A stretch of DNA of 64,000 bases from Verrucomicrobiota bacterium (GTDB lineage Bacteria; Verrucomicrobiota; Verrucomicrobiia; JADLBR01). The notes beneath the pieces were generated by a model. That model was not told where the DNA came from. It did not search any database and saw only the letters and a list, made by a program, of their open reading frames with translations. The position numbers and the translations under genes were made by a program. The DNA lies in assembly GCA_029560585.1 (NCBI GenBank), contig JAKQKQ010000008.1, forward strand, positions 1-64,000, written 5' to 3'. Positions within the stretch are counted from its first letter, which is position 1; the number at the start of each line of letters is the position of its first letter. Below are positions 1,990-19,680 of this stretch, in pieces.

Positions 1990-4112
1990 AAAGAAACACC
2001 ATCCGTGGAGCAATTGTTCGCAACGTGGCGCTCGCCTGCATTTGCCTGTGCGCGCCGGGGGCGAGGGCGGAACGCGCCATCGTGACCCTTGACGGGGCAT
2101 GGGACATCGCGCAGGGGACCGATGAGGCGCCCCCCGCGAAATATGCTGCCAGCGCGCCGGTGCCCGGCCTCGCGGACATGGCGAAACCGCGCTTCGAGGA
2201 CGTCGGCAGGAAGAGCGAGAAGAGGCGGTTCTTCTGGTATCGCCGCACCTTTGTTGCGCCCGAAGCCTTGCCGGAATTCGCATCGCTGAAGATCCACAAG
2301 GCGCGGTTTGGCACCGCCGTGTGGATCAATGGCAAGGCGCTGGGTGAACAGCTGTCGGGCTTCACGCCCTCATACTGGGATATCCGTCCCCACCTGAAGG
2401 CCGGGGCATCGAACGAACTGGTGGTGAGGGTCGGTGCCGATCGGGAATACCTGCCGAAGGGGATGCCCAGCGGCTGGGACTTCGAGAAATACCTCTTCAT
2501 CCCGGGCATCTACGATTCGGTGGAACTCATCCTGTGTGGGCCGCCGCACATTTCCAACGTGCAGTGTGTTCCGGATGTCGGGGGGAAACGGGTGCGGCTA
2601 TTGGCGGAGTTGCGAGGCGGCGCGGAGGCCGGCCCGTGCCGTGTCGAGGCCGAGATAGCGGAGGCGGCGGGAGGGAAGACCGTGGCCAGGGGCGCGGCGC
2701 AGGCCCTCGAACTCGCGCCCGGCGAAACGCGGGTGCTGGACGTGACGCTGCCGATCCACGGGTGCCGCCTCTGGTGGCCCGAGGACCCATTTCTGTACGA
2801 GGCGCGGCTGAAGACAGCCGGCGATTCGCTAACCGCGCGATTCGGGATGCGGGAATTTCGATTCGATCCCTCAACCAAGTGCGCCGTCATCAATGGGCAG
2901 CAGCGCTATCTCGTGGGGTCGAACGTGACGATCTACCGTTTCTTTGAGGACGCCCTGCGCGGGAACAAACCGTGGGACCGCGAGTGGGTCAGGAAACTGC
3001 ACAGGCAATACAAGACGATGCACTGGGACACGCTGCGCTACTGCATAGGGTTCCCGCCGGATTTCTGGTACGATATCGCCGATGAAGAAGGGTTCCTGAT
3101 CCAGGATGAATTCCCGATATGGACCCTCAAGGAGGATCCCGAGAAGATTCAGGCCGCGAAGATAATTCCGGAATACATCGCCTGGATGCGCGAGCGCTGG
3201 AACCACCCGAGCGTGACGATCTGGGACGCGCAGAACGAGAGCAACACCAGGGAGACGGGATTGGCGCTCCAAACCGTCCGGCATCTGGATTACTCGAATC
3301 GCCCGTGGGAAAATGGCTGGGCCGAGCCACAGGGTGCCTGCGACTGCGTCGAATCGCACCCGTATCTTTTCAGCCGGGGCTGGGTCGGGAAGAAGGACGT
3401 GGCCCCATTCCGTCTCTCCGAGATGCCGAAGGTCGATATCAAACCGAGACTCAACAAGGAGCAGCAGGCGCTCGACGTCCCGATCATCATCAACGAGTAC
3501 GATTGGCTTTGGCTCACGCGGGATGGCGATCCCACTTGTCTCACGAAACACAACTACGACGCGCACGTGGGTGCTGGCGCGACCGCCGAACAGCGGCGCA
3601 TGTTCCACGCGCGCGGCGTGGCGGCGCTGACGGAATTCTGGCGGTGCCACCGGCAGGCGGCGGCCGTGCTCCACTTCTGCGGGCTGGGCTATTCGCGCCC
3701 CGGCGACAAGCCGCGGCCGGAGGGCGGCGCCACCAGCGATGACTTCGCCGATATCGCCACGCTCGAGTTCGAGCCGACGTTCAAGAAATACGTGCGCATG
3801 GCCTTCAATCCAGTGGGTCTGATGCTGGATTTCTGGGAGGAGAAGGTCGCGCCCGGGTCCGAGCGCGAGATCAAGGTATTCGTCATCAACGATCGCCAGA
3901 CGGCGTGGCGCGGCGAGGTTCGGCTCCGGATCGAGGGAGACGAGGGCGCCCTGGCGAAGATGGAATGCGACGTGGCTCCGCTGGGCCAGCGGATCATGGG
4001 CCTGCAATTCCGGGTGCCAGAGAAACTGGGCAAGTATACCATCGCGGCCGAATTGACCGACGGGCGGGAAACCATCCAGAGCCTGAGGGATTTCGAGGTC
4101 GCCGGACCCTGA
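1986..4112 (+). CDS. Secreted glycoside hydrolase family 2-like protein
   Basis: A 708-residue protein. It begins with a classic signal peptide (MKRNTIRGAIVRN, a hydrophobic stretch, then APGARA) and should be exported. A GH2 sugar-binding jelly roll follows at about residues 35-190 (FFWYRRTF, then SYWDIRPHL), an immunoglobulin-like domain at 190-300, and a TIM barrel. In the barrel WNHPSVTIWDAQNES carries the NE pair expected for the acid/base near residue 418, and IIINEYDWLW near residue 504 is the likely nucleophile. GH2 enzymes include beta-galactosidases, glucuronidases and mannosidases; the sequence does not let me choose. I chose the ATG at 1986 because it overlaps the upstream stop and starts the signal peptide. 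The frame itself is open further upstream. Confidence 0.85.
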   Translation: MKRNTIRGAIVRNVALACICLCAPGARAERAIVTLDGAWDIAQGTDEAPPAKYAASAPVPGLADMAKPRFEDVGRKSEKRRFFWYRRTFVAPEALPEFASLKIHKARFGTAVWINGKALGEQLSGFTPSYWDIRPHLKAGASNELVVRVGADREYLPKGMPSGWDFEKYLFIPGIYDSVELILCGPPHISNVQCVPDVGGKRVRLLAELRGGAEAGPCRVEAEIAEAAGGKTVARGAAQALELAPGETRVLDVTLPIHGCRLWWPEDPFLYEARLKTAGDSLTARFGMREFRFDPSTKCAVINGQQRYLVGSNVTIYRFFEDALRGNKPWDREWVRKLHRQYKTMHWDTLRYCIGFPPDFWYDIADEEGFLIQDEFPIWTLKEDPEKIQAAKIIPEYIAWMRERWNHPSVTIWDAQNESNTRETGLALQTVRHLDYSNRPWENGWAEPQGACDCVESHPYLFSRGWVGKKDVAPFRLSEMPKVDIKPRLNKEQQALDVPIIINEYDWLWLTRDGDPTCLTKHNYDAHVGAGATAEQRRMFHARGVAALTEFWRCHRQAAAVLHFCGLGYSRPGDKPRPEGGATSDDFADIATLEFEPTFKKYVRMAFNPVGLMLDFWEEKVAPGSEREIKVFVINDRQTAWRGEVRLRIEGDEGALAKMECDVAPLGQRIMGLQFRVPEKLGKYTIAAELTDGRETIQSLRDFEVAGP

Positions 4113-4164
4113 GCGGAGGGGGTGCGGATCGCGCGCTAGCATCGACCCCGGCGCGGGGCTCTCG

Positions 4165-4184
4165 GGGGTCACGCCCATGACCCC
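4165..4184. terminator. Possible stem-loop after the GH2 gene
   Basis: GGGGTCA and TGACCCC form a perfect 7-bp inverted repeat around a 6-base loop, 53 bases after the GH2 stop. There is no T-tract, so a role in termination is only suggested by position. Confidence 0.3.
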
Positions 4185-4220
4185 GGGCGCGGGGCCATGC
4201 CATGTGGGCAACAAGGGGCT

Positions 4221-4249
4221 TTACTCGAGGCCCGTCCAGCACCTATTAT
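4221..4249 (+). promoter_or_regulatory. Candidate sigma-70-type promoter for the DUF4838 gene
   Basis: TTACTC (4221-4226) and TATTAT (4244-4249) are 17 bases apart, in the only AT-rich patch of this gap. Transcription would start near 4256. That lies downstream of the ATG at 4202 and supports the later start chosen for the next gene. Confidence 0.4.
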
Positions 4250-4291
4250 TTTGAAATCGAAATTATTCTCAGACCCACGGGTGCGAGCCCG

Positions 4292-6529
4292 TTGAGAAAC
4301 CTGCTGCTCTCGGCGATGTGCTGGGCCGGGGTGGCGGTGCCGTGCGTTGCGTCGGGACCGACCCCGATTGTGGAGGACGGGGAGGCGCGCGCGACGATCA
4401 TCTTGCCCGCCGATGCGGGGCCGACCGTGCGGGAGGCGGCCCGGCAGTTGTCTGGCTATTTGGAAAAGATGTCGGGCTCGAAGCTTCCCATCGTTGCGGA
4501 TGGCGGGGCCGTGACGGGCACTCGGATTGATCTGGGACCAACCGAGGTGGCGCGGAGGCGGTTGCCAGACGGTTTCCTGGGCGACACCGAGCGCGTTTGG
4601 ATCGAGGCTGGGCCGGAGGGCGTGACGGTATGCGGCGGGGGCGAGCGGGGAACGTTGTTTGCCGTCTATCGGTTTCTGGAGACGCTCGGTTGCCGGTGGC
4701 TGACGCCGGAACCCGAGAACGAATTGGTGCCGCTCCGGAAGACGATCTCGCTGGGGCCCATCAGGCTCGATGCGCGCCCGGTGTTCTCGTGGAGGCTTTT
4801 TTCGGCGGGAAAACCGGAGCGGGAGCGCTGGGGACTAAAGATGGGCATGAACGGGTTCTACTCGGCGGACACGGCTGCGACAAACGGGGCATGCATCTAC
4901 TGGCCGCGGGGCATTCAGGGTGTCCACGCATACTACCAAATCGTACCCGCCAAACGATACTTCGCGGCGCATCCCGAATGGGGCGCGCTTCTGGGTGGGA
5001 AACGGGTGCCGACGGATGTTCACCGCAGCCAGCTCTGCGTGACCGCGCCGGGGCTGGCGGATGAGTTTGCCGCAAACGTCATCCGGGCGCTCGACCTGAG
5101 CCCGGACGCTCCGATGGTGTCCGTCAGTCCCAACGATGGCTCGGCGTGGTGCGAGTGCGACGCGTGCCTGGCCCTCGACCGCAAGCTTTGCGGCGGGCGC
5201 ACGACAGAGCAGGGCCTGGCGAGGGCGAAGCCTTTCGTGGGCGACCGGGTGTTCTGGTTCGCCAACGAGGTGGCGGACCGCGTCGCGCTCAAGCATCCGG
5301 ATAAGAAACTGCTCGTGCTGGCCTACATCAATTATGCCGAACCCCCCGACACGATCCGGCCGCGGCCGAGCGTGGTGCCATTTCTCTGCCATTATGCTCC
5401 AGCCGACTACAGCCGCGCGATCAACGACCCGACCTCCGAGGCCAACCGCCAGTTCGACGACCTGTTGAAACGGTGGCTGAAGATATCGCCCGACCTGATG
5501 ATCTACAGCTATGTGAGCAAGTCCATGTGGTGGCGGCTGCCCAGGCCGGTGCTGCACACCTTTGCCGCGGACGTGAAATACCTGCACGAGCTGGGCGTGC
5601 GGCGGTATTACAGCCAGAGTTCACTTAGCGACTGGCCGCTCGACGGGCCACTCTACTACGTGATCGCGAAGCTGCTCTGGGATCCATCCGCCGACCCGGA
5701 CGCCATTGCGGGCGAGTGGATGGACGGAATGTTCGGTGTGGCCGCGCCGGCGATGAGGGAATTCTACGCGGAGGTCGAGACCGCGGTCCGCAAGACCGGC
5801 AAGTCCTATAGCGACGACCCGCGCACGCAGGCCGCCGGCCTTTACGACCGCGCGAGGCTCGACCGGGCGATGGCGGCGATTGATCGGGCCGAGAATGCGG
5901 CGCGCGGCGACGGGGCGGTGGCGCGGCGCGTGGCCGACGTGGCGCGGACTTTCCGCTACGGCTACTGGATGATCGAATGCCTCGAGCAACACGCGAGGAT
6001 GTTGGAGACTGGCGATCCCGCGCGAATGGAGGATGCCCGCGAGGCGGGTCGGAAGGCGCTTGGGTACTGCGGGGTCCGGGAGGCGGCGGATTTCCTGAAA
6101 GGCTGGAAGACGGGGGCACGGCTGGGCGTAATGAACAACGGTTTCGGCAAAGAGGAACTCAAGGGCGACAGGCGGTGCTGGAACTCGGACGAAACGGGGC
6201 CTGGTGACAATGCCTGCGGGTGGGCGACCTTCACGATCCCAGTCTCGGACCGCGGCAAGGCCCTCCTGGTCGAAATGGATGTGTGGGGCGAGTCGCGGCT
6301 GACGGGTATCTCCGTCAATACGCGCAAGGGCGTCTGGACCCCGCTTCGCCCGCTGCAACGGCTCTCGCGCAAGCCGCAATGGGACACGCTGCAATTCCGC
6401 GTGCCGGGCGAGGCCCTCGACCACGACCGCGTTGCGCAGCAGTTCGGTTTTGGCGGTGCCGACAGCCAGATCTGGGTCGCCGCCATCCGCGCGCGGGAGG
6501 ACAAGATCGGCGCCGCCAAGGAAAGGTAG
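4292..6529 (+). CDS. Secreted DUF4838 / alpha-glucuronidase-N-like protein
   Basis: The protein is 745 residues from a TTG at 4292. That start gives a clean signal peptide (LRNLLLSAMCWAGVAVPCVASG) and lies just after a candidate promoter. An in-frame ATG at 4202 would add 30 residues that do not look like a secretion signal. After export, an alpha-glucuronidase N-like domain (about residues 30-150) shows GTLFAVYRFLETLGCRWLTPE. A DUF4838 barrel follows (about 195-480; DAPMVSVSPNDGSAWCECDAC). Helices and a C-terminal beta domain complete it. DUF4838 proteins are linked to polysaccharide breakdown, but their chemistry is mostly unknown. It may be transcribed apart from the GH2 pair. Confidence 0.8.
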   Translation: MRNLLLSAMCWAGVAVPCVASGPTPIVEDGEARATIILPADAGPTVREAARQLSGYLEKMSGSKLPIVADGGAVTGTRIDLGPTEVARRRLPDGFLGDTERVWIEAGPEGVTVCGGGERGTLFAVYRFLETLGCRWLTPEPENELVPLRKTISLGPIRLDARPVFSWRLFSAGKPERERWGLKMGMNGFYSADTAATNGACIYWPRGIQGVHAYYQIVPAKRYFAAHPEWGALLGGKRVPTDVHRSQLCVTAPGLADEFAANVIRALDLSPDAPMVSVSPNDGSAWCECDACLALDRKLCGGRTTEQGLARAKPFVGDRVFWFANEVADRVALKHPDKKLLVLAYINYAEPPDTIRPRPSVVPFLCHYAPADYSRAINDPTSEANRQFDDLLKRWLKISPDLMIYSYVSKSMWWRLPRPVLHTFAADVKYLHELGVRRYYSQSSLSDWPLDGPLYYVIAKLLWDPSADPDAIAGEWMDGMFGVAAPAMREFYAEVETAVRKTGKSYSDDPRTQAAGLYDRARLDRAMAAIDRAENAARGDGAVARRVADVARTFRYGYWMIECLEQHARMLETGDPARMEDAREAGRKALGYCGVREAADFLKGWKTGARLGVMNNGFGKEELKGDRRCWNSDETGPGDNACGWATFTIPVSDRGKALLVEMDVWGESRLTGISVNTRKGVWTPLRPLQRLSRKPQWDTLQFRVPGEALDHDRVAQQFGFGGADSQIWVAAIRAREDKIGAAKER

Positions 6530-6685
6530 GAGGGCGAGACAGGCGGGATGCCAACATTCCTGGCGGCACAAGTCGGCCTCGTTGTCTCGTCCGGCCAATG
6601 ACGAGTCCCTCACCGAGGCACCGACACGCAGAGACGGACTAAGGCGCGATGGTGGATGGCTGCGCCGATCGGCCGCACCGGGCCC
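6530..6685. other. Convergent gap without a gene
   Basis: This is the 156-base space between two converging genes. CGAGACA near 6535 and TGTCTCG near 6589 are inverted but far apart. I see no convincing terminator or coding sequence. Confidence 0.3.
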
Positions 6686-8482
6686 TCATTTGAATAGCGC
6701 GTACCGCATCGATGGGACCGATTTCCCTTTGTAGGGGAATGCGCTGGCGCCGTAGTTAGTGATGATCTCCGATCCATCGGAGAAGGCGGTTCGGAACACG
6801 TCGGCTGCGACCTGCTCGTGCTGCTCCATGAACTCGAGCTGCAGTGGCGCCAGCGCCTCAAATTCATCGTAACCCTTCTTCAGGCACCCGGTCGCCTCGG
6901 TCAACTCCTCCTCCGTCGCGCACCTCAAGTCGGTGCTCCCCATCCAGTTCTTGTTGTCGGCTTTGAACTGCGAATAGAAGTAAAAGATGGGTCGGCCATT
7001 GAACTCCGCGAGCTTCAGCTGGGTCATCGCGTCTTTGGTTGTCGGATTCACGGTCTCGGTGAAGGGATTGCTCAGGATGATGCCATTGTAGACGAGCTGC
7101 CAGATCGGGATCACGCGGTCGTGCAGAGGATTCCGTTTTCCAGAAAGCCCATTGAAATAGACGTAGAGCACGTAGTCCAGATTCCCGCAGGCGAAATCGA
7201 ACGCGCCCTCTGATGCGACTCCGCCAATGTGATCTTTGCACGCCTGCAGGATCCGGTCGAACCAGATGGCGCTGTCCTTGGAGGAGCAGGGGTGAAGCGG
7301 GTCGTGGCATCGGGGTGGCTGCAGGATGGTGATGACGTCGATGTAGTGCAGGCCGCGGAAACCCAGGTCCGCGACCTTCTGGATGTCCCTGGGATAGAAC
7401 CGCTCGAATGATCGCTGCGGGCAGAGCGCGTACGTCTTGCCCCCGCTCCAGACCGCGTTGGAGAAGGGCGTTCCGTCTGCCCTCTTGACCGCGAGGTCCG
7501 GGTCCCAGCAATCCGCGATGCTGTATCCGTCCGAGCTGTTGGTGTGGCCCACGATCTGGTAGCCCATGCGGCGGGCCTTCTTGATGAGCGGGCGGAGCCT
7601 CGCCTCGCCGCCGAGGGTCTCCTCGACGGGGAAGATCTGCGGCCAGCGGCCGTCGTGCCCCTTCTGGTTCCAGCCGACGAGGCAGATCTCGGCGCGCCTG
7701 ACGCCCGCCTTTTCGAACGCGTCCAGGATGTCGCCGACGCGGTCGAACGTGACGGCCACCTTCATCGTTGGTTCGGTCTCCGGGGTCTGTTCCAGCACCG
7801 GGCTGGGCGCGGGTTTCCAGCCCTGACGGATGCGGACCTCCATGCTTTTCGCGGCATAGGCCAGTTCCGCGTGAGTCTTCATGCGCTCCTTGATTGGTTT
7901 GCAGACACCCCGCGCAAGCTGGTGGTTCCTGTAGGTGCGCGCCATGCCCGCATAATCCGCGTCCTTGCCGGAAAGCAGATGATAGTGGACGGTGATGTCA
8001 TCAGGGGGGACGAAACCCGACACGAGGAAACGGGGGGCGATGCTGTAGGCGCCATCCTTCGCCCGCACCATCAGGTCGTACTCGAACCGCATCGTGGCCA
8101 CGATTGCGACGAACGTCGCGCGAGGGTTCTTCATGCCAAAGATCGGCATGAAGTTCCTTCCGTAGAACCCGCTTGGCCCTGGAACCGTGTACGAGCCTTT
8201 CTGCAGACGGAATGTCCCGAGGAAACCGTCGGGAGTGATGTAGTAACCTTCCTCGCCAATCGCCGCGCGCGCGAAGTCTGGCTGGATCGTGACATACTCA
8301 ACGCCTGGGGGGAGTTCGGCCCGCCTGACCGTCACTGTCACGACGCCCCTCGCGTCTGGCTCGGCCGCGACGGTCGCCTTTTCTTCGTGCTTGTCCTTGA
8401 ACGTGTAGGTGAGCTCCACCTGCGCGGCGACCGCCCCGCACGCCCAGGCAAATAGTGGTGCCAGCGCCCACAGCTTCTTCAT
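6686..8482 (-). CDS. Secreted GH101/DUF5696-like glycosidase-type protein
   Basis: A 598-residue minus-strand protein. The start at 8482 follows a GGAGG four bases upstream and opens a signal peptide (MKKLWALAPLFAWACGAVAA). The N-terminal half is beta-rich. It then has the DYAGMARTYRNHQLARG signature, a spacer and a TIM-barrel-like part from about residue 245. That part includes RRAEICLVGWNQKGHDGRWP, YQIVGHTNSSDGYS and GFRGLHYIDVITILQPPRC. This order resembles DUF5696 proteins, distant relatives of GH101 enzymes that act on glycan chains. The family call is from memory of motifs, not a search. It stands alone as a single transcription unit and faces away from the IclR gene. Confidence 0.65.
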   Translation of the reverse strand: MKKLWALAPLFAWACGAVAAQVELTYTFKDKHEEKATVAAEPDARGVVTVTVRRAELPPGVEYVTIQPDFARAAIGEEGYYITPDGFLGTFRLQKGSYTVPGPSGFYGRNFMPIFGMKNPRATFVAIVATMRFEYDLMVRAKDGAYSIAPRFLVSGFVPPDDITVHYHLLSGKDADYAGMARTYRNHQLARGVCKPIKERMKTHAELAYAAKSMEVRIRQGWKPAPSPVLEQTPETEPTMKVAVTFDRVGDILDAFEKAGVRRAEICLVGWNQKGHDGRWPQIFPVEETLGGEARLRPLIKKARRMGYQIVGHTNSSDGYSIADCWDPDLAVKRADGTPFSNAVWSGGKTYALCPQRSFERFYPRDIQKVADLGFRGLHYIDVITILQPPRCHDPLHPCSSKDSAIWFDRILQACKDHIGGVASEGAFDFACGNLDYVLYVYFNGLSGKRNPLHDRVIPIWQLVYNGIILSNPFTETVNPTTKDAMTQLKLAEFNGRPIFYFYSQFKADNKNWMGSTDLRCATEEELTEATGCLKKGYDEFEALAPLQLEFMEQHEQVAADVFRTAFSDGSEIITNYGASAFPYKGKSVPSMRYALFK

Positions 8483-8676
8483 GGTGCCTCCATCTCTTCT
8501 CCCCGCGGGACCGCGCGACACGGGATATTGGCCTCGGAAGGCACAAATTGCCCATGGCGACGAGCGCGCAAGGATGATACGACCGGCGCACGATGGCAAG
8601 CCAGGCGAAAGAGGGAGGGTGCGTGGCGCCAGGGTTGCGTGTGTCGCAGGCTGGCGGCGCGCCCGCTTGCCGTGGC

Positions 8677-8694
8677 GCAGGCAATCTTGCCTGC
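8677..8694. repeat. Short perfect palindrome
   Basis: GCAGGCAA and TTGCCTGC form a perfect 8-bp stem with a 2-base loop. It lies mid-gap, far from either gene, so it is more likely a dispersed palindromic repeat than a regulatory site. Confidence 0.4.
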
Positions 8695-8846
8695 GGCAGC
8701 GGCCCTGCGCCGGTGGTGGTGGCAGACAGGATTGTTGCCCCACGGCGCCCGGGGATCCGCAGGGGGCTGGGGTGATCTTGGCGTCATGCACCCGAAAAGG
8801 GGGCCCGGAGACGCAATTCGATTGACGGCGCCGGAGGGAACGCATA

Positions 8847-8881
8847 TTGTAAAAAGCGCAACAAGATTGCATATAATACAA
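8847..8881 (+). promoter_or_regulatory. Nested dyad operator and promoter of the IclR gene
   Basis: Two inverted repeats share one exact centre at 8864. The outer pair is TTGTA (8847-8851) with TACAA (8877-8881); the inner pair is GCAA (8858-8861) with TTGC (8867-8870). A consensus TATAAT (8872-8877) lies inside, with TTGTAA 19 bases before it as the -35 box. The dyad ends one base before the IclR start codon. IclR proteins bind palindromes near their own promoters, so autoregulation is the simplest reading. The -10 box is so close to the ATG that the transcript must be leaderless or start elsewhere. Confidence 0.6.
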
Positions 8882-8882
8882 C

Positions 8883-9731
8883 ATGTCCCAGAACCGATCA
8901 ACCCGCCCCATACAGAGCCTCGAGCGTGGCCTTGTGCTGCTGGAGGCCGTGGCCGACGCGGGGCGGCCGGTGTCGCTGGCCGATTTGACACCCGTTCTGG
9001 GATTGGACCGCAGCAGCGTCTTTCGGCTGGCGAACACCCTCAGGCTACGAGGATTCCTGATTCAGTTGCCGGAGAGCAAACAGTATGCCCTCGGTTCGAC
9101 GATCTGGCGGCTCGCCAACCGCCTAGCCTTCGGCAATGCGCTGGTGGAGTTGGCGCGCGAGCCAGTCAACTCGCTGGCGGGTCAGACGGGGGAAACCACC
9201 CATCTGGCGATCCGCGTGAACCGGGAGGCGGTGTTGATCGACCACCGGCTGACAAAGCGGGCGGTGGGCGTGGCGGGCGGGGCCGGCAGGAGCGTGCCGC
9301 TGCATTGCACCGGGGTGGGCAGGGCGCTGCTCGCGGACTGCGACCACGAGCACTTGATCGGGCTTCTTGGCGACGCCCCTCTCGCTCGTTTTACGAGGCG
9401 GACGATAACTCGGTTAGACGATCTGGCGGACGAGTGCCGGCGGGTTCGGGAGCGGGGGTTTGCGATCGACGATGAGGAACATGATGACGGCGTGAGATGC
9501 GTGGCGGCCCCGGTCCGCGATGCGGGCGGGCAGATCGTGGCGGCGATGGGGATCTCCGCGCCGGTCGCGCGGTTGGCGCGTGACAGGCTGCCCGCGGTCG
9601 GCAAGACAGTCATGGCGGCCGCGGCGGACCTGGGCGAGAGGCTGGGGTATGCCGCGCCTCGGCGAGGGAAGAGAACCGCGCCCAAGGCATTGGCACCCAG
9701 GCGATCGTCCCGGAGGCGGAGGTGCCGGTGA
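8883..9731 (+). CDS. IclR-family transcriptional regulator
   Basis: A 282-residue regulator. The N-terminal winged helix-turn-helix (about residues 8-70) shows QSLERGLVLLEAVA and DRSSVFRLANTLRLRGFL. The IclR effector domain (about 80-250) follows, with ETTHLAIRVNREAVLIDH, RSVPLHCTGVGRALLAD and a conserved FAIDDEEHDDGVRCVAAPV segment. The last 30 residues are a basic tail that looks unstructured. It probably senses a small carbon source. The next two genes, an isomerase and a Gfo/Idh oxidoreductase, follow at 55 and 27 bases and are its likely targets, along with the divergent glycosidase. A nested dyad overlaps its promoter. Confidence 0.9.
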   Translation: MSQNRSTRPIQSLERGLVLLEAVADAGRPVSLADLTPVLGLDRSSVFRLANTLRLRGFLIQLPESKQYALGSTIWRLANRLAFGNALVELAREPVNSLAGQTGETTHLAIRVNREAVLIDHRLTKRAVGVAGGAGRSVPLHCTGVGRALLADCDHEHLIGLLGDAPLARFTRRTITRLDDLADECRRVRERGFAIDDEEHDDGVRCVAAPVRDAGGQIVAAMGISAPVARLARDRLPAVGKTVMAAAADLGERLGYAAPRRGKRTAPKALAPRRSSRRRRCR

Positions 9732-9786
9732 TCGTCGAGGAGATGGTGCGGGCGGAGAGCAGACGGGAGATCGAAAGGAGCGGAGT

Positions 9787-10743
9787 ATGATGGCGAGCAC
9801 AAGGGTGATGACTCGGCGGCAGGCATTGCTGGCCGCGTGCGGGGTGGGCGGGCTCGCGCTGACGCGGGCCCATGGGGCAGAGGCTACGTCCGAGCGGACG
9901 GGCAAGAAGGAGGTGAGGATCGGCTGCGGCACGGTCACGTTTCGGAAGCTATCGCTGGATGATGCGCTGCAACGGATCGCGCGCGCCGGGTACGAGTATT
10001 GCGAGACGCAGGCAACCGGGCCGTGGTGCCCGCACGTGGATGCGTGGAAGGACGATCCGGAGAAATTCAAGCGGCGCGTTCAAGATTATGGCTTCAAGGG
10101 CGTCACGGGACTCTGGTCGCCACATGGCGCGATCATCGCAAATCCGAAAAGCGTGGAGGGCATCACGCAGGCGATCCGCTGGGCGGCGGCGGCGGGCATC
10201 CCGGTCGTTCACGCCGGCGACGGCAAAAAGCCCGAAGGCATGTCGGATGACGATGCGCTCAAACTGATGCGAGGGCGTCTCGCGGAGATTCTGGAGGTGG
10301 CGGAGAAGTGTCGGGTGTATCTGGGCATCGAGCCACACGGTTCGTTCTCTCTGACGACCGAAGGCCTGAGACGAATCATGGGCCTGTCATCCTCCCCGTG
10401 GCTCGGGATCAATTATGACACGGCGAACGTCCACAGGGTCACGTACGCAGAAAAGGCGGAGGGCGCGTACGCTTTTCAACCCTATGGCGAGCGCCAAGAT
10501 GAGGTCGCCACGCTGGCGGCCGTGGCGGACCGGGTGGTGCACCTGCACCTGAAAGATGTCGTGGGCGCCAAGTGTGTCGCGCTGGGGGAGGGGGGCGTGA
10601 ACCTCGCGGGCTGCCTGGATGTGCTGAGGCAACGGCATTATGCGGGCGCGTTTTCGTTGGAAACAGAGGGCGATATGGACCCTCAGCTAGGACAGCAGAT
10701 GATCGAGCGGAGCCGCGCATGGCTGGTGAAGGCGCTGGCCTGA
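9787..10743 (+). CDS. Tat-exported xylose isomerase-like TIM-barrel protein
   Basis: A 318-residue member of the sugar phosphate isomerase/epimerase family (COG1082). GAAAGGAG lies six bases before the start. The N-terminus reads as a twin-arginine signal (MTRRQALLAACGVGGLAL), so the protein is probably exported folded. The TIM barrel keeps the usual metal-ligand positions: an acidic residue in LGIEPHGSF, Asp in NYDTANV, His in VHLHLKD and Glu in FSLETEGD. Family members epimerise or isomerise sugars and inositols, and some eliminate 3-keto-glycosides. Pairing with the adjacent Tat-signal Gfo/Idh gene suggests a periplasmic oxidise-then-cleave route, which is an inference. Confidence 0.8.
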   Translation: MMASTRVMTRRQALLAACGVGGLALTRAHGAEATSERTGKKEVRIGCGTVTFRKLSLDDALQRIARAGYEYCETQATGPWCPHVDAWKDDPEKFKRRVQDYGFKGVTGLWSPHGAIIANPKSVEGITQAIRWAAAAGIPVVHAGDGKKPEGMSDDDALKLMRGRLAEILEVAEKCRVYLGIEPHGSFSLTTEGLRRIMGLSSSPWLGINYDTANVHRVTYAEKAEGAYAFQPYGERQDEVATLAAVADRVVHLHLKDVVGAKCVALGEGGVNLAGCLDVLRQRHYAGAFSLETEGDMDPQLGQQMIERSRAWLVKALA

Positions 10744-15865: not shown

Positions 15866-16960
15866 TCAGACGGTTTCGCCTGCGATGAACCTCGGCATCA
15901 GCCTGAACGCTTGCGCGGGCAGCGTGCGTGTCGCGGCAAGTTCACAGACCGCGCCGCACACCTTGCGGGCGAACTGATCGATGTTGATTGCGTACCGGCT
16001 CAGGGCGGGACTCGTGTGCTGGAGATATGCGTCATCGTCGCGCGACAAGACGGCCGCGTCCTGGGGCAGGCGGCGCTCGCGCCGCATCAGGTGCATCGCG
16101 ACGGTCAAGGCATGCACCGCCCGGACGACGAGATAGCCGGTGGGCGGGCCCGATGTCCGCAGGATCTTGTCCAGCAGTGAGCACAGATGAGCCGCGGCTC
16201 CGTCGTGCCGCAGCACCCGGAGTTGGGCGCCCGGATGTCTGTCCACGGCCTCGCGAAACCCGCGCTCACTTTCCAAGTCGCCGTCGTAGACATCCTGCTG
16301 CAGCACGAGGGCGAGTCGCGTGTGGCCCCTCCTCAACAGGACATCGCCCGCGTGGCGGCAGGTCGCTCGAAAATCCACGTCCACAGATGGGAGGGGAATG
16401 CCGGGCCCGCATGATCCGATCACGAGCAGAGGCAGATGGCGCGCGAGAAACCAGCGCTGCATGGGCTCCTTGGATCCCCATGCCACCCAGATGGTGGCAG
16501 GGTTGTTCTGGACGAGCTTTTCCAACGCGCGCGCGGGTTTGGGGGAGAAGCAGGCGGGGTCCACGTGGAACTGGACCGCATGGCCCACGCCGGCGAGATG
16601 ATCCCGCAGGGTGTCGAGCATGAATAGCGTGGCGGGCGGCATCGACTGAAGGGGCAAGGGCGCAAGCAGGGTGACAAGACGCGATGATGACCGGGGCGGG
16701 ATGCGCCCGCGCCGTGGCCCGATGAGCCGTCGCGTGCGCCCCGCGAGCCCGATGAGACCCTCGCGCTCCAGCTCGCTCAGTGCGGCGCGCAACGTGGGTC
16801 GGCTAACTTGCAGGTGCCGGCACAGTGGGCGCTCGGCGGGCAAGCGTTCCGCCCAATGCCCGGCACGCAGGTGAGCGCGGATCGAGGCCGCCGTCTGCGA
16901 GATTAGCGAAACGCGCTGCGGCAGGGAGACCACCGCCAGATTGGGGCACGATGAGGGCAT
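15866..16960 (-). CDS. GntR-type HTH / LacI-type sensor transcriptional regulator
   Basis: A 364-residue regulator. The N-terminal winged helix (about residues 12-75) has RLPAERPLCRHLQVSRPTLRAALSELEREG, a typical GntR recognition region. The rest is a periplasmic-binding-protein-like sensor of the LacI/XylR kind, with MLDTLRDHLAGVGHAVQFHV, DVLLRRGHTRLALVLQQD and a late AINIDQFARKVCGAV. This domain pair usually senses a sugar. The start at 16960 is one base from an operator dyad and gives the full winged helix; the frame runs further upstream without domain support. It is divergent from an SDR gene. Two copies of the dyad suggest it controls 17049-23999 and itself. Confidence 0.85.
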   Translation of the reverse strand: MPSSCPNLAVVSLPQRVSLISQTAASIRAHLRAGHWAERLPAERPLCRHLQVSRPTLRAALSELEREGLIGLAGRTRRLIGPRRGRIPPRSSSRLVTLLAPLPLQSMPPATLFMLDTLRDHLAGVGHAVQFHVDPACFSPKPARALEKLVQNNPATIWVAWGSKEPMQRWFLARHLPLLVIGSCGPGIPLPSVDVDFRATCRHAGDVLLRRGHTRLALVLQQDVYDGDLESERGFREAVDRHPGAQLRVLRHDGAAAHLCSLLDKILRTSGPPTGYLVVRAVHALTVAMHLMRRERRLPQDAAVLSRDDDAYLQHTSPALSRYAINIDQFARKVCGAVCELAATRTLPAQAFRLMPRFIAGETV

Positions 16961-16999
16961 TTGGTCTGGTAAACTGACCAACAGGCTACGCTTGTCCGC
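16961..16999. promoter_or_regulatory. Operator module copy 1 (TTGGTC-N9-GACCAA)
   Basis: TTGGTC (16961-16966) and GACCAA (16976-16981) are a dyad centred at 16971, directly next to the regulator's start codon. CGCTTGTCCGC follows at 16989-16999. The same two elements with identical spacing recur at 17925-17963. The site probably binds the adjacent GntR-type regulator and controls both divergent genes. Confidence 0.6.
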
Positions 17000-17048
17000 C
17001 GGGGTCCAGCAAGACCAAGATCGACTATCCTTAGGAGGTATCCGTCCG

Positions 17049-17849
17049 ATGAATGGAGAAATCGAAGCCCCCGCGAATCCGTTCGGCCTCACCGGCCAAG
17101 ACCATTGGGTGGTGGGGGGCGCGGGCTATCTGGGGCGGGCGGTGGTCGAGTTGCTGGCTCGCATGGGCGCGCGCGTCCTCTGCGTGGATCTCGAGGACAA
17201 GGCGCGCGCATTTGTGGAGGGCGCGGGCCTGGGGGCGCGCGTGACCGCCAGCCGCATGGACGCGGACGATGCCGCCGCCGTGGGGGGATACATTGCCGCG
17301 CAGATCGCCGAGCGAGGGATTCCGCATGGTCTGGTGATGATGAACTGTTCCTCCACCTCGAAGGGCCTGGAGGAGTTGGGCGCGGAGGACTTCGACCGTG
17401 TCAATCACGGCAACCTGACGGCGACGTTTGTGTTCGCGCGCGAGGCGGCGATCGCGATGCGCGCGGCGGGCCGTGGCAGTGTCGTCCTCTTCTCGAGCAT
17501 GTACGGATCGGTCTCGCCCGATCCTTCGGCGTATGAGTCGCCGATGAATCCCAACCCCATCGAGTACGGAGTGGACAAGGCCGGGATCCAGCAGATGGCG
17601 CGTTATCTCGCGGTGCATTTCGGCAAGGATGGCGTCCGGTGCAACTCGATATCCCCCGGGCCATTCCCGAATCCGGAGGTGCGGCGGCTTCATCCGGAGT
17701 TCGTCGCACGCCTGGCGAAGAAGGTGCCACTGGGTCGGGTGGGTTGCTCCGGGGAGATCGCGGGAGCGGTTGCTTTTCTGCTGAGCGACGCCGCCTCTTA
17801 CATCAACGGCGTCAACCTGCCCGTAGACGGCGGATGGACGGCGTGGTGA
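17049..17849 (+). CDS. Short-chain dehydrogenase/reductase
   Basis: A 266-residue SDR. A strong TTAGGAGGT sits ten bases before the ATG. The cofactor motif is slightly atypical (VVGGAGYLGRAVVELLARMG). The Ser of FSSMYGSVSP, then YGVDKAG with Tyr and Lys, give the catalytic set, and SPGPFPNPEVRRLHPEF follows. The C-terminus YINGVNLPVDGGWTAW is the standard SDR ending. It should oxidise or reduce a sugar, polyol or keto-acid with NAD(P). The insertion DPSAYESPMNPNPIEYG before the catalytic Tyr resembles the gluconate-5-dehydrogenase-like group. It is divergent from the GntR regulator and preceded by operator copy 1. Confidence 0.88.
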   Translation: MNGEIEAPANPFGLTGQDHWVVGGAGYLGRAVVELLARMGARVLCVDLEDKARAFVEGAGLGARVTASRMDADDAAAVGGYIAAQIAERGIPHGLVMMNCSSTSKGLEELGAEDFDRVNHGNLTATFVFAREAAIAMRAAGRGSVVLFSSMYGSVSPDPSAYESPMNPNPIEYGVDKAGIQQMARYLAVHFGKDGVRCNSISPGPFPNPEVRRLHPEFVARLAKKVPLGRVGCSGEIAGAVAFLLSDAASYINGVNLPVDGGWTAW

Positions 17850-17865
17850 GCCCCGACGCCGGGGC
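17850..17865 (+). terminator. GC hairpin right after the SDR stop
   Basis: GCCCCG and CGGGGC make a 6-bp stem with a 4-base loop immediately after the stop codon. There is no T-tract. It may end the SDR transcript before operator copy 2. Confidence 0.35.
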
Positions 17866-17924
17866 CGACGCCCATTGCGGTGATTCGGCCACGGGGGCCG
17901 GACGGGCTCGGGCGGGCTTCAGGT

Positions 17925-17963
17925 TTGGTCAAGCAATATGACCAGGATCTTGCGCTTGTCCGC
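17925..17963 (+). promoter_or_regulatory. Operator module copy 2 (TTGGTC-N9-GACCAG)
   Basis: TTGGTC (17925-17930) and GACCA (17940-17944) are again nine bases apart, and CGCTTGTCCGC follows at 17953-17963 with the same 8-base gap as in copy 1. By my count 28 of 39 positions are identical to copy 1. It sits just upstream of the M14-like gene and so probably governs the five-gene run up to 23999. Confidence 0.6.
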
Positions 17964-17991
17964 GAACGCCCTCTCATCCGAGGATGTGCCC

Positions 17992-19680
17992 ATGTTGATC
18001 GGGGTCGCGCCGGCCGGCGCCGCACGCAGATACCGTCCATCGGTGCGGGTGGGCTTGATTGTCGCCGCGCTCATTGCGTGGTGGTCGCTCCCGGCCGTGG
18101 CCGCGCACTCGGACCACGTCGAGGCGCTGTCGCGGATGCCGAGGCCGTGGCTGGAGAAACCAAACACGTTCACATTCGAGGAATATGACGCCACGCTGCG
18201 TCACTGGGCGGAGAAGCGCGCCGATGTTGTTTCGCTGTCGAAGCGCGGCGAGAGCGGGGACGGATTCCCTCTCTATCTCGTCGATCTCACGGCCAAGTCG
18301 ATTCCCGATGACGACAAGCAGCGGATCCTGATCACGGGTTTGCACGTGGGACCGGAGCGCAGCGGTGGAACGACCATCCTGCGTCTCATCGAATGGCTCT
18401 TGGGCGGTGACGCGGAGGCGCGCGAGGTGTTGCGCAAGCAGCGAGTCCTGGCCATGCCCGTGATGAACCCGCACGGCATGTTTGCCGCCGAGGGCAACGG
18501 CAATGCGGCCGGCCTGCCGGTGTATGACGGCAGACGCGGCAAGATGTGGGACATCGCGGCGATGAGGTTGCTGGAGCCCGAGAAGACACCGGAGCTGGGC
18601 GCCTTTGTGGGCGTGGCGGATGAGTTCCAGCCGGAGGTCCACGCGGATGTCCACGGCGTGACGCTCAGCTTCAACGGCCAGTTGGTCTCGGAGTCCGTGG
18701 GATCGGCCGGCTCCAATCACGCGCTGCGGCCGTGGGATTCGCGCGTGACCGAGGCGATGATAGCCGCCGGCCGGGAGGCGGGGTATCCGAGCGATCGGTG
18801 GGAGGCGGACGCGCAAAGGATGCTGTGGGGGCCCGAATTGGAACCGCATGCGCCCAAGCTGTGGATGGGGCGCGTGTTTTTCTATCCCGGCAGCTACCCC
18901 TACATGAAATATCACACGCTGCCGGTGCTCACCGAGAATGGTTGGGAGGAAGGAGGGGTGGCGCGGTTGAAGGGTCTGCTGCGGGTCGGGAATACGGGGT
19001 CCGATTTTCAGCCTCACCCGGGCTATGCCGTGGATCGCGTGAAGAGCCTCGGCGGCCACTATCTGGCCGCGTATGGTCGCACGGCGGCCGAGCGCCGCGC
19101 CAGCCGCGTCGAATTGTGGAGCCGCCAGGGCGCGATCACGCTGGCCATGCTCTATCCGCAGTGCGACTGCCGCGCGCTCGTGGCGTGCGCCGTGACTCCG
19201 GCGGGGCGCAGTGCCCTGGTCCCACGTGACCCGAAGACCCAGGCGCTCACCGCGCAAGGTTTCATCGAGAGCATGAGGGCCCTGCCCGAGGTCGACGCCG
19301 ACGCCATCGAGACCTTCGTCAAGGCCGGTCCCGAGGTGAGGCTGTACGCGGACCCGACATTGCAGCCCGCGGAAGACCGTGGCCTAGAGCATGGCCTGGC
19401 GTTCCTCCTCCGCCTATCGTACGCGAAGCCCGAATTGCTCGACCTGCGCCTCAATGGGCACCTCATCAAGGAGAGCGCAGCAGACGGTTTTCAAACGTGG
19501 TTCGCCGACGGTTTCACGAATGTCCAGATCAACGTGCCGCCGGAGAAGACGCGCGGGGCCGATGTCTTCGTCGTCTCCTGCGCCTACAGGCCGGACGTCC
19601 AGCGGACCTATGGATGGCGCCCGCCCGCGGAGGTACTGTCGAAAATCAAGGCGGCGCAGGAGGGCGACCGCGGCCCATGA
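17992..19680 (+). CDS. Secreted M14-like zinc carboxypeptidase-type protein
   Basis: A 562-residue protein. The ATG at 17992 has GAGG seven bases before it and leads into a basic segment plus a hydrophobic stretch (VGLIVAALIAWWSLPAVAA), a signal peptide or anchor. An upstream in-frame ATG at 17938 lies inside operator copy 2 and is unlikely. The M14 fold is suggested by ILITGLHVGPERSGG, then VMNPHGMF and FQPEVHADVHG. The first zinc motif reads His-x3-Glu instead of the usual His-x2-Glu, so activity is uncertain. A C-terminal beta domain follows. It heads the operon with the sialidase-like and Gfo/Idh genes and may process peptides of glycoproteins. Confidence 0.65.
   Translation: MLIGVAPAGAARRYRPSVRVGLIVAALIAWWSLPAVAAHSDHVEALSRMPRPWLEKPNTFTFEEYDATLRHWAEKRADVVSLSKRGESGDGFPLYLVDLTAKSIPDDDKQRILITGLHVGPERSGGTTILRLIEWLLGGDAEAREVLRKQRVLAMPVMNPHGMFAAEGNGNAAGLPVYDGRRGKMWDIAAMRLLEPEKTPELGAFVGVADEFQPEVHADVHGVTLSFNGQLVSESVGSAGSNHALRPWDSRVTEAMIAAGREAGYPSDRWEADAQRMLWGPELEPHAPKLWMGRVFFYPGSYPYMKYHTLPVLTENGWEEGGVARLKGLLRVGNTGSDFQPHPGYAVDRVKSLGGHYLAAYGRTAAERRASRVELWSRQGAITLAMLYPQCDCRALVACAVTPAGRSALVPRDPKTQALTAQGFIESMRALPEVDADAIETFVKAGPEVRLYADPTLQPAEDRGLEHGLAFLLRLSYAKPELLDLRLNGHLIKESAADGFQTWFADGFTNVQINVPPEKTRGADVFVVSCAYRPDVQRTYGWRPPAEVLSKIKAAQEGDRGP

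Follow-up and report, generated by a model that had tools for sequence, protein, structure and literature searches.

The window analysed here is a 64,000-nucleotide stretch of a Verrucomicrobiota genome (contig JAKQKQ010000008.1, positions 1 to 64,000). It contained a gene for a GntR-type regulator on the minus strand, and genes for a short-chain dehydrogenase and an M14-type zinc carboxypeptidase-like protein on the plus strand (Table 1). A module composed of a palindrome and an 11-base tail, TTGGTC-N9-GACCA-N8-CGCTTGTCCGC, was found as an exact match with the same spacing at 16961-16999 (+) and 17925-17963 (+). The two sites are 964 bp apart and identical at 28 of 39 bases. No third copy was detected in the window at up to three mismatches, and 100 dinucleotide shuffles gave 0. 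A sequence-only reading of this DNA had reported a 39-bp module occurring twice with fixed spacing and this level of agreement, which was confirmed by the exact matches and the empty shuffles. The same reading placed the two copies around the regulator. Two copies were indeed present, with copy 1 between the regulator and the dehydrogenase genes and copy 2 upstream of the carboxypeptidase-like gene, so that the gene flanked by them is the dehydrogenase and not the regulator. Allowing two mismatches, the bare palindrome does not stand out in a window this rich in GC (25 matches vs a mean of 14.9), and the strength of the observation therefore rests on the whole module.

Table 1. Features of the two module copies and adjacent genes in the window.
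Feature	Coordinates	Strand	Basis or remark
Regulator, GntR winged helix plus Peripla_BP_3 (LacI-type) domain	15866..16960	-	Pfam, NCBIfam, PDB sequence search; likely ATG 16960 abuts palindrome
Site 1 palindrome, 21 bp, TTGGTCTG-N5-CTGACCAA, predicted regulator operator	16961..16981	.	Exact match; conserved beside orthologous regulators
Site 1 tail, CGCTTGTCCGC	16989..16999	+	Contains predicted -35 hexamer TTGTCC (16992-16997)
Site 1 predicted -10, CAAGAT	17016..17021	+	18 bp past -35
Short-chain dehydrogenase, predicted site 1 target	17049..17849	+	Pfam adh_short_C2, 1.4e-40
Site 2 palindrome, 21 bp, TTGGTCA-N7-TGACCAG	17925..17945	.	Pattern search
Site 2 tail, CGCTTGTCCGC	17953..17963	+	Contains predicted -35 TTGTCC (17956-17961)
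Site 2 predicted -10, GAGGAT	17980..17985	+	18 bp past -35, 6 bases ahead of ATG 17992
M14-type zinc carboxypeptidase-like gene, predicted leaderless site 2 target	17992..19680	+	Pfam Peptidase_M14, 3.7e-07

The regulator (364 aa) harbored an N-terminal GntR winged helix (PF00392, 6.8e-11; 42.1 bits vs a cut-off of 27) and a C-terminal LacI-type ligand domain (PF13377, 1.9e-16; PDB LacI-family chains, 2.6e-07). Its best solved relatives by sequence were LacI-family ligand domains, and its named relatives were from Verrucomicrobia MAGs. No named GntR or LacI equivalog in NCBIfam scored above its cut-off; 12 models matched, all far below.

The full palindrome comprises 21 bp, YTGGTCA-N7-TGACCAR. 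The nine bases between its half-sites were not random, and in relatives the palindrome extends to CTGGTCAG-N5-CTGACCAG. Among 17 modules compared, an A just past the palindrome centre was nearly invariant (16 of 17), and the half-sites contained the GT...AC of the GntR-family operator form (NyGTNxACNy). The distance from GT to AC was 11 in all 17, compared with about 3-4 for FadR/HutC-type sites.

The genome to which the window belongs (7.06 Mb, 336 contigs, 95.7% complete) was searched for further copies. With up to three mismatches, the module was found four times and the reversed-pattern control was not found, and all four copies shared the order palindrome, tail, gene. The other two copies were located 1721 bp apart on contig C254, and the gene downstream of each encodes a secreted-looking protein with no Pfam match. 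The sequence-only reading had held that many random matches away from promoters would count against the module; the genome contained four copies, each directly upstream of an ORF. The C254 copies reside in a cluster with secreted proteins (L016, C254:106000-125000, at 3510-10229), which also includes a gene run resembling thiolase, CoA-transferase, and short-chain dehydrogenase, as judged from translations.

The module was also present beside the same regulator in other uncultured Verrucomicrobiota MAGs. A homologue of the regulator at E<=1e-60 was identified in 35 of 384 genomes of the class. The core pattern (palindrome plus TACGNTTG) gave 18 matches with at most one mismatch across these 384 genomes, distributed over 16 of them. 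All six exact matches (five genomes) adjoined a regulator homologue. Five of the 12 one-mismatch matches adjoined the regulator or were located in its cluster (G007, G015, G001, G000 site 2, and G231), and the remaining seven, which lacked such a link, equalled the number of matches obtained with the reversed control (7). In 15 genomes that were picked for having the regulator, a search for YTGGTCA-N7-TGACCAR that was free of any downstream spacing found 16 exact places vs 2 for the control. The occurrence of two copies within 1 kb might suggest chance resemblance or a recent local duplication, but the shuffles yielded none, the variable positions of the two copies differ, and their flanks are unrelated. 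This explanation is already contradicted by the copies found at further loci and, next to the same regulator, in different genera, and we regard its probability as negligible.

These co-occurrences tie the palindrome to the regulator. It had been proposed from the sequence that the palindrome half fits a dimeric regulator, and this proposal gained good support from the six exact core matches, all of which adjoin a regulator homologue. The neighbouring GntR/LacI-hybrid regulator very probably binds the palindrome, as judged from this conservation. In eight of the 13 regulator-adjacent modules compared, the palindrome was followed directly by ATG on the regulator strand; this abutment was absent in G015, G016_C73, G039, and the second copies in G023 and G047. 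Since the palindrome touches the regulator's own ATG on the other strand, autorepression of the regulator gene is suggested. Inside the palindrome, where a -10 for a leaderless transcript of the regulator was looked for, the centre was A/T-rich and no clear hexamer was shared. In G267, G382, and G151 (L229, L230, L231, L234, and L235), the same palindrome was present but lacked the promoter at the constant spacing; paralogous regulators whose arrangement differs may use these sites.

The invariant core of the 11-base tail was TTG, with nAnnnT 17-18 bp later and often ATG after 6-7 more bases. With the pattern YTGGTC-N9-GACCAR-N8-GSTTG, the 15 genomes yielded 42 matches at up to one mismatch (12 exact and 30 one-mismatch), and the reversed-pattern controls gave 14 matches in total. 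When N8 before GSTTG was replaced by N7, 0 exact and 11 one-mismatch matches were obtained, vs 12 and 30. The TTG was followed by nAnnnT at 17-18 bp in all 12 exact matches, within the sigma70 type of arrangement (-35 and -10 16-18 bp apart), and ATG was exactly 36 bases from TTG in five of them. One exact match, G382:C11, had no visible regulator link and may be due to chance. Among the one-mismatch matches, 6 of 30 had nAnnnT at 17-18 bp, several of these being real regulator-linked modules.

TTG is built into this pattern, and only the spacing-free palindrome test is free of such bias. In the 32 flanks of the 16 palindromes found by that test, TTG with nAnnnT occurred at t=10 in nine flanks and at none of the other 39 positions (10 flanks if a spacer of 16 was also allowed), although several of the sites are orthologous and the counts are thus not fully independent. 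In 2000 shuffles, the total over all 40 positions averaged 1.3 and no single position exceeded 2. The promoter was missing at six of the 16 palindromes (one in G001_C522, one in G267, two in G382, and two in G151). The tail does not look like a half-site. A promoter is consistent with where the tail lies, with the -10-like hexamer downstream of it, and with the start codon. We are thus confident that the tail is a -35 box, as predicted from sequence. For the tail, it had been suggested that it binds a second factor or sets promoter strength; the latter is supported because the tail contains the predicted -35 box, and a second factor is not needed.

Two other readings were considered and rejected. 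In one, the palindrome's TTGGTC would serve as the -35 in a classical pair, but by eye the hexamer at that distance was not conserved between copies. The other was a known type of structured RNA or riboswitch, for which no Rfam match up to E=1 was obtained in 16800-18200.

Some conserved bases lie outside the -35 and -10 elements. AG-N3-TACG between the palindrome and TTG was kept mainly in regulator-adjacent copies and is not explained by a -35 box alone. Further, a GCAARCC-like block just ahead of the -10 was conserved in many regulator-adjacent modules (L062, L092, L093-L097, L109, and L112). Neither block was conserved at window site 2 or at the C254 sites. In G001, the tail and a downstream block form a perfect inverted repeat, GCTTGTC/GACAAGC.

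Alternatively, the tail might serve the same regulator as an accessory half-site or be recognized by a second DNA-binding protein. In PMC4494728, the FadR, HutC, and YtrA groups are described as having weaker additional half-sites at 7-12 nt from the centre; AG-N3-TACGC just ahead of TTG is also conserved, and the G001 tail pairs with an inverted GACAAGC downstream. The core of the tail, however, is 21-23 bp from the centre and not 7-12, the tail does not resemble CTGGTCAG, and the invariant part is TTG, which has nAnnnT, and often also ATG, spaced as in a promoter. A second-factor or accessory site was thus rejected on position and sequence, and we consider it very improbable. The promoter could also be read by an alternative sigma factor and not by the housekeeping one. 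The -10 hexamers are poor (GAGGAT, CAAGAT, GACGAT, and GATACT), and GCAARCC ahead of the -10 is conserved in several regulator-adjacent copies, but TTG plus nAnnnT at 17-18 bp is the sigma70 pattern, and other genes of the genome are enriched for this geometry, which leaves an alternative sigma factor improbable.

Because the -10 usually lies 6-7 bases ahead of the start codon, the geometry implies that many transcripts from the modules are probably leaderless. In 11 of the 19 modules given, the start codon of an ORF with a minimum length of 100 aa lies at +35 to +39 from the TTG. The start was exactly at +36 in six (site 2, C254b, G023, G047, the MAG of L095, and G231), and at +35, +35, +37, +38, and +39 in the other five. 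Two of the 19 modules had no ORF in their short locus. Later starts were found in six of the 17 modules with an ORF (window site 1, +57; G001, +59; G016_C63, +64; G015_C101, +89; G151, +93; G039, +43). Window site 1 thus has a leader, with the Shine-Dalgarno sequence AGGAGG at 17033-17038 and ATG at 17049. The ATG at +39 of C254a may not be the true start, given a signal-peptide-like start inside the ORF. In G016:C63 (L096), the codon about 35-36 bases past the module TTG was ACG, and the downstream gene started at +64; this possibly represents a lost leaderless start.

Start geometry was also surveyed in a sample of the genome (about 480 kb and 253 genes, 223 of which had a usable first ATG). 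TANNNT peaked at exactly -12 (8 of 223 first ATGs, vs 0-5 at each of the remaining offsets between -45 and -4), and TTG was highest at -36 (9 of 223). A clear peak of Shine-Dalgarno words was detected at -14 to -9 in the same 223 genes, and leaderless genes are therefore not the majority; the peaks at -12 and -36 suggest that a minority of the organism's genes are probably leaderless and share the module geometry. TTG/nAnnnT/ATG sets with the module geometry numbered 6 in 283 called genes, site 2 included, with about 2 expected by a rough estimate. A candidate leaderless promoter with a consensus -35, TTGACA-18-GATTTT-6-ATG, was observed on the minus strand of the window (ATG at about 56354). 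Some Verrucomicrobia are described as poor in Shine-Dalgarno sites (PMC10783764). The literature searched gave no account of the module, nor of leaderless genes in this phylum, a weak negative since subscription papers were little covered.

In the proposed explanation, each 39-bp block would be an operator rigidly coupled to a promoter. A regulator homodimer would bind the 21-bp palindrome YTGGTCA-N7-TGACCAR, and the tail would supply the -35 (TTGTCC) of a weak promoter of the sigma70 type, followed by a spacer of 17-18 bp and a -10 of nAnnnT, usually with 6-7 bases to the start codon. The regulator, gated by a sugar-type ligand, would recruit RNA polymerase as an activator of the dehydrogenase, the peptidase-like gene, and the two secreted-protein genes on C254. 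Binding to the same palindrome would shut off the regulator gene on the opposite strand. We consider this explanation, taken as a whole, reasonably likely on the sequence comparisons above.

The direction of regulation was judged from geometry and promoter quality. Counted from the first T of the -35, the palindrome centre is 21 bp upstream, which places it at about -57 relative to the predicted start; neither the side nor the distance varies. In the promoter-bearing copies the palindrome edge is 10 bp from the -35, and the promoter core is therefore not covered. A constant distance across loci and genera is expected if the regulator touches polymerase. A strict sigma70 consensus scan of 16800-18150 found no promoter, and since the -10s are also poor, the promoters were judged weak. 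Among the 12 exact matches only the doubtful G382 had a -10 beginning with T; the one-mismatch module G015_C29 had such a -10 with a spacer of 16. The centre at about -57 differs from the class I activator position of -61.5. AraR, the best-studied GntR/LacI hybrid, is a repressor, as are most GntR regulators, which counts against activation and for repression. Cre boxes of CcpA (LacI family) upstream of the -35 are described as generally meaning activation (PMC3463425). Given this precedent, the constant distance to the promoter, and the weakness of the promoters, activation of the plus-strand genes is moderately favoured over repression.

The same operator and promoter would also be compatible with a repressor bound immediately ahead of the -35, perhaps with looping between the paired sites, and released by the sugar ligand. 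The sites are paired at both loci (964 bp apart in the window and 1721 bp on C254), and NagR is counted among GntR repressors in PMC4333415. The 10-bp gap to the -35, however, leaves the promoter core uncovered, a repressor does not need a fixed distance, and the promoters are weak. Repression of the plus-strand genes thus appears rather unlikely.

Genes next to the modules encoded short-chain dehydrogenase (window, G001, and G151, all of the same Pfam family and downstream of the module), RraA-like aldolase (G007 and G015), secreted proteins without a Pfam match (C254, G023, and G047), Kelch/NanM-like protein (L095), URO-D-like enzyme (G016), ceramidase-like protein (G015_C101), D-serine-dehydratase-like enzyme (G231), and sulfatase (G159). 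The window cluster also contained Gfo/Idh/MocA, BNR, and GHL10 proteins. Such neighbours would be consistent with the degradation of a complex glycan and with a ligand of the sugar type. More tentatively, activation may be extended to a Verrucomicrobiota lineage of GntR/LacI-hybrid, sugar-sensing activators that use a rigid operator-promoter cassette at leaderless genes, with one palindrome activating catabolic genes from about -57 in one direction and, by its contact with the regulator's ATG, giving self-repression in the other. The cassette would have been retained with the regulator during exchange of the neighbour gene. The exchanged neighbours would be dehydrogenase, RraA-like aldolase, secreted hydrolase-like protein, Kelch/NanM-like protein, and URO-D-like enzyme. 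This broader view is conceivable, and we hold it with less than even confidence.

To our knowledge, regulation in uncultured Verrucomicrobiota is almost unmapped. The module supplies a specific operator together with predictions of a regulon and of transcript starts. It also suggests that the lineage has a minority of leaderless genes, some with regulated promoters, and that a GntR/LacI hybrid may be a position-dependent activator with unusually wide half-site spacing.

Among known systems, AraR of Bacillus subtilis has the same domain pair (Pfam GntR plus Peripla_BP_3) and a palindromic operator near sugar-catabolic genes, and autoregulation is plausible in the present case. The operator of AraR itself is compact, whereas the half-sites here, CTGGTC/GACCAG, are 9 bases apart, and a constant spacing separates the site from the promoter downstream of it, with activation more likely than repression. 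With FadR and HutC (NagR and DasR), the module shares half-sites of the GntR-family form GT...AC. The window regulator, aligned by eye, keeps Arg 28, 38, and 42 and Thr 40 in the numbering of Table 1 of PMC4494728, in which these Arg and Thr positions are listed for FadR and AraR. The GT to AC distance given there is 4 in most HutC sites and similarly compact for FadR, in contrast to 11 here, and the regulator has no FadR or HutC effector domain. CcpA resembles the regulator in its LacI-type ligand domain and in an operator upstream of the -35, a position linked with activation (PMC3463425), but it has a LacI headpiece and acts globally with HPr-Ser-P, whereas the present regulator has a GntR DNA-binding domain and an apparently small regulon. 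Several modules resemble leaderless promoters in having TTG at -36, nAnnnT at -12, and ATG at +1, a geometry with a minor genome-wide signal, although in this case the promoters are predicted from sequence only. What is new here is an AraR-like regulator whose predicted half-sites are unusually far apart and which is coupled to a predicted leaderless promoter.
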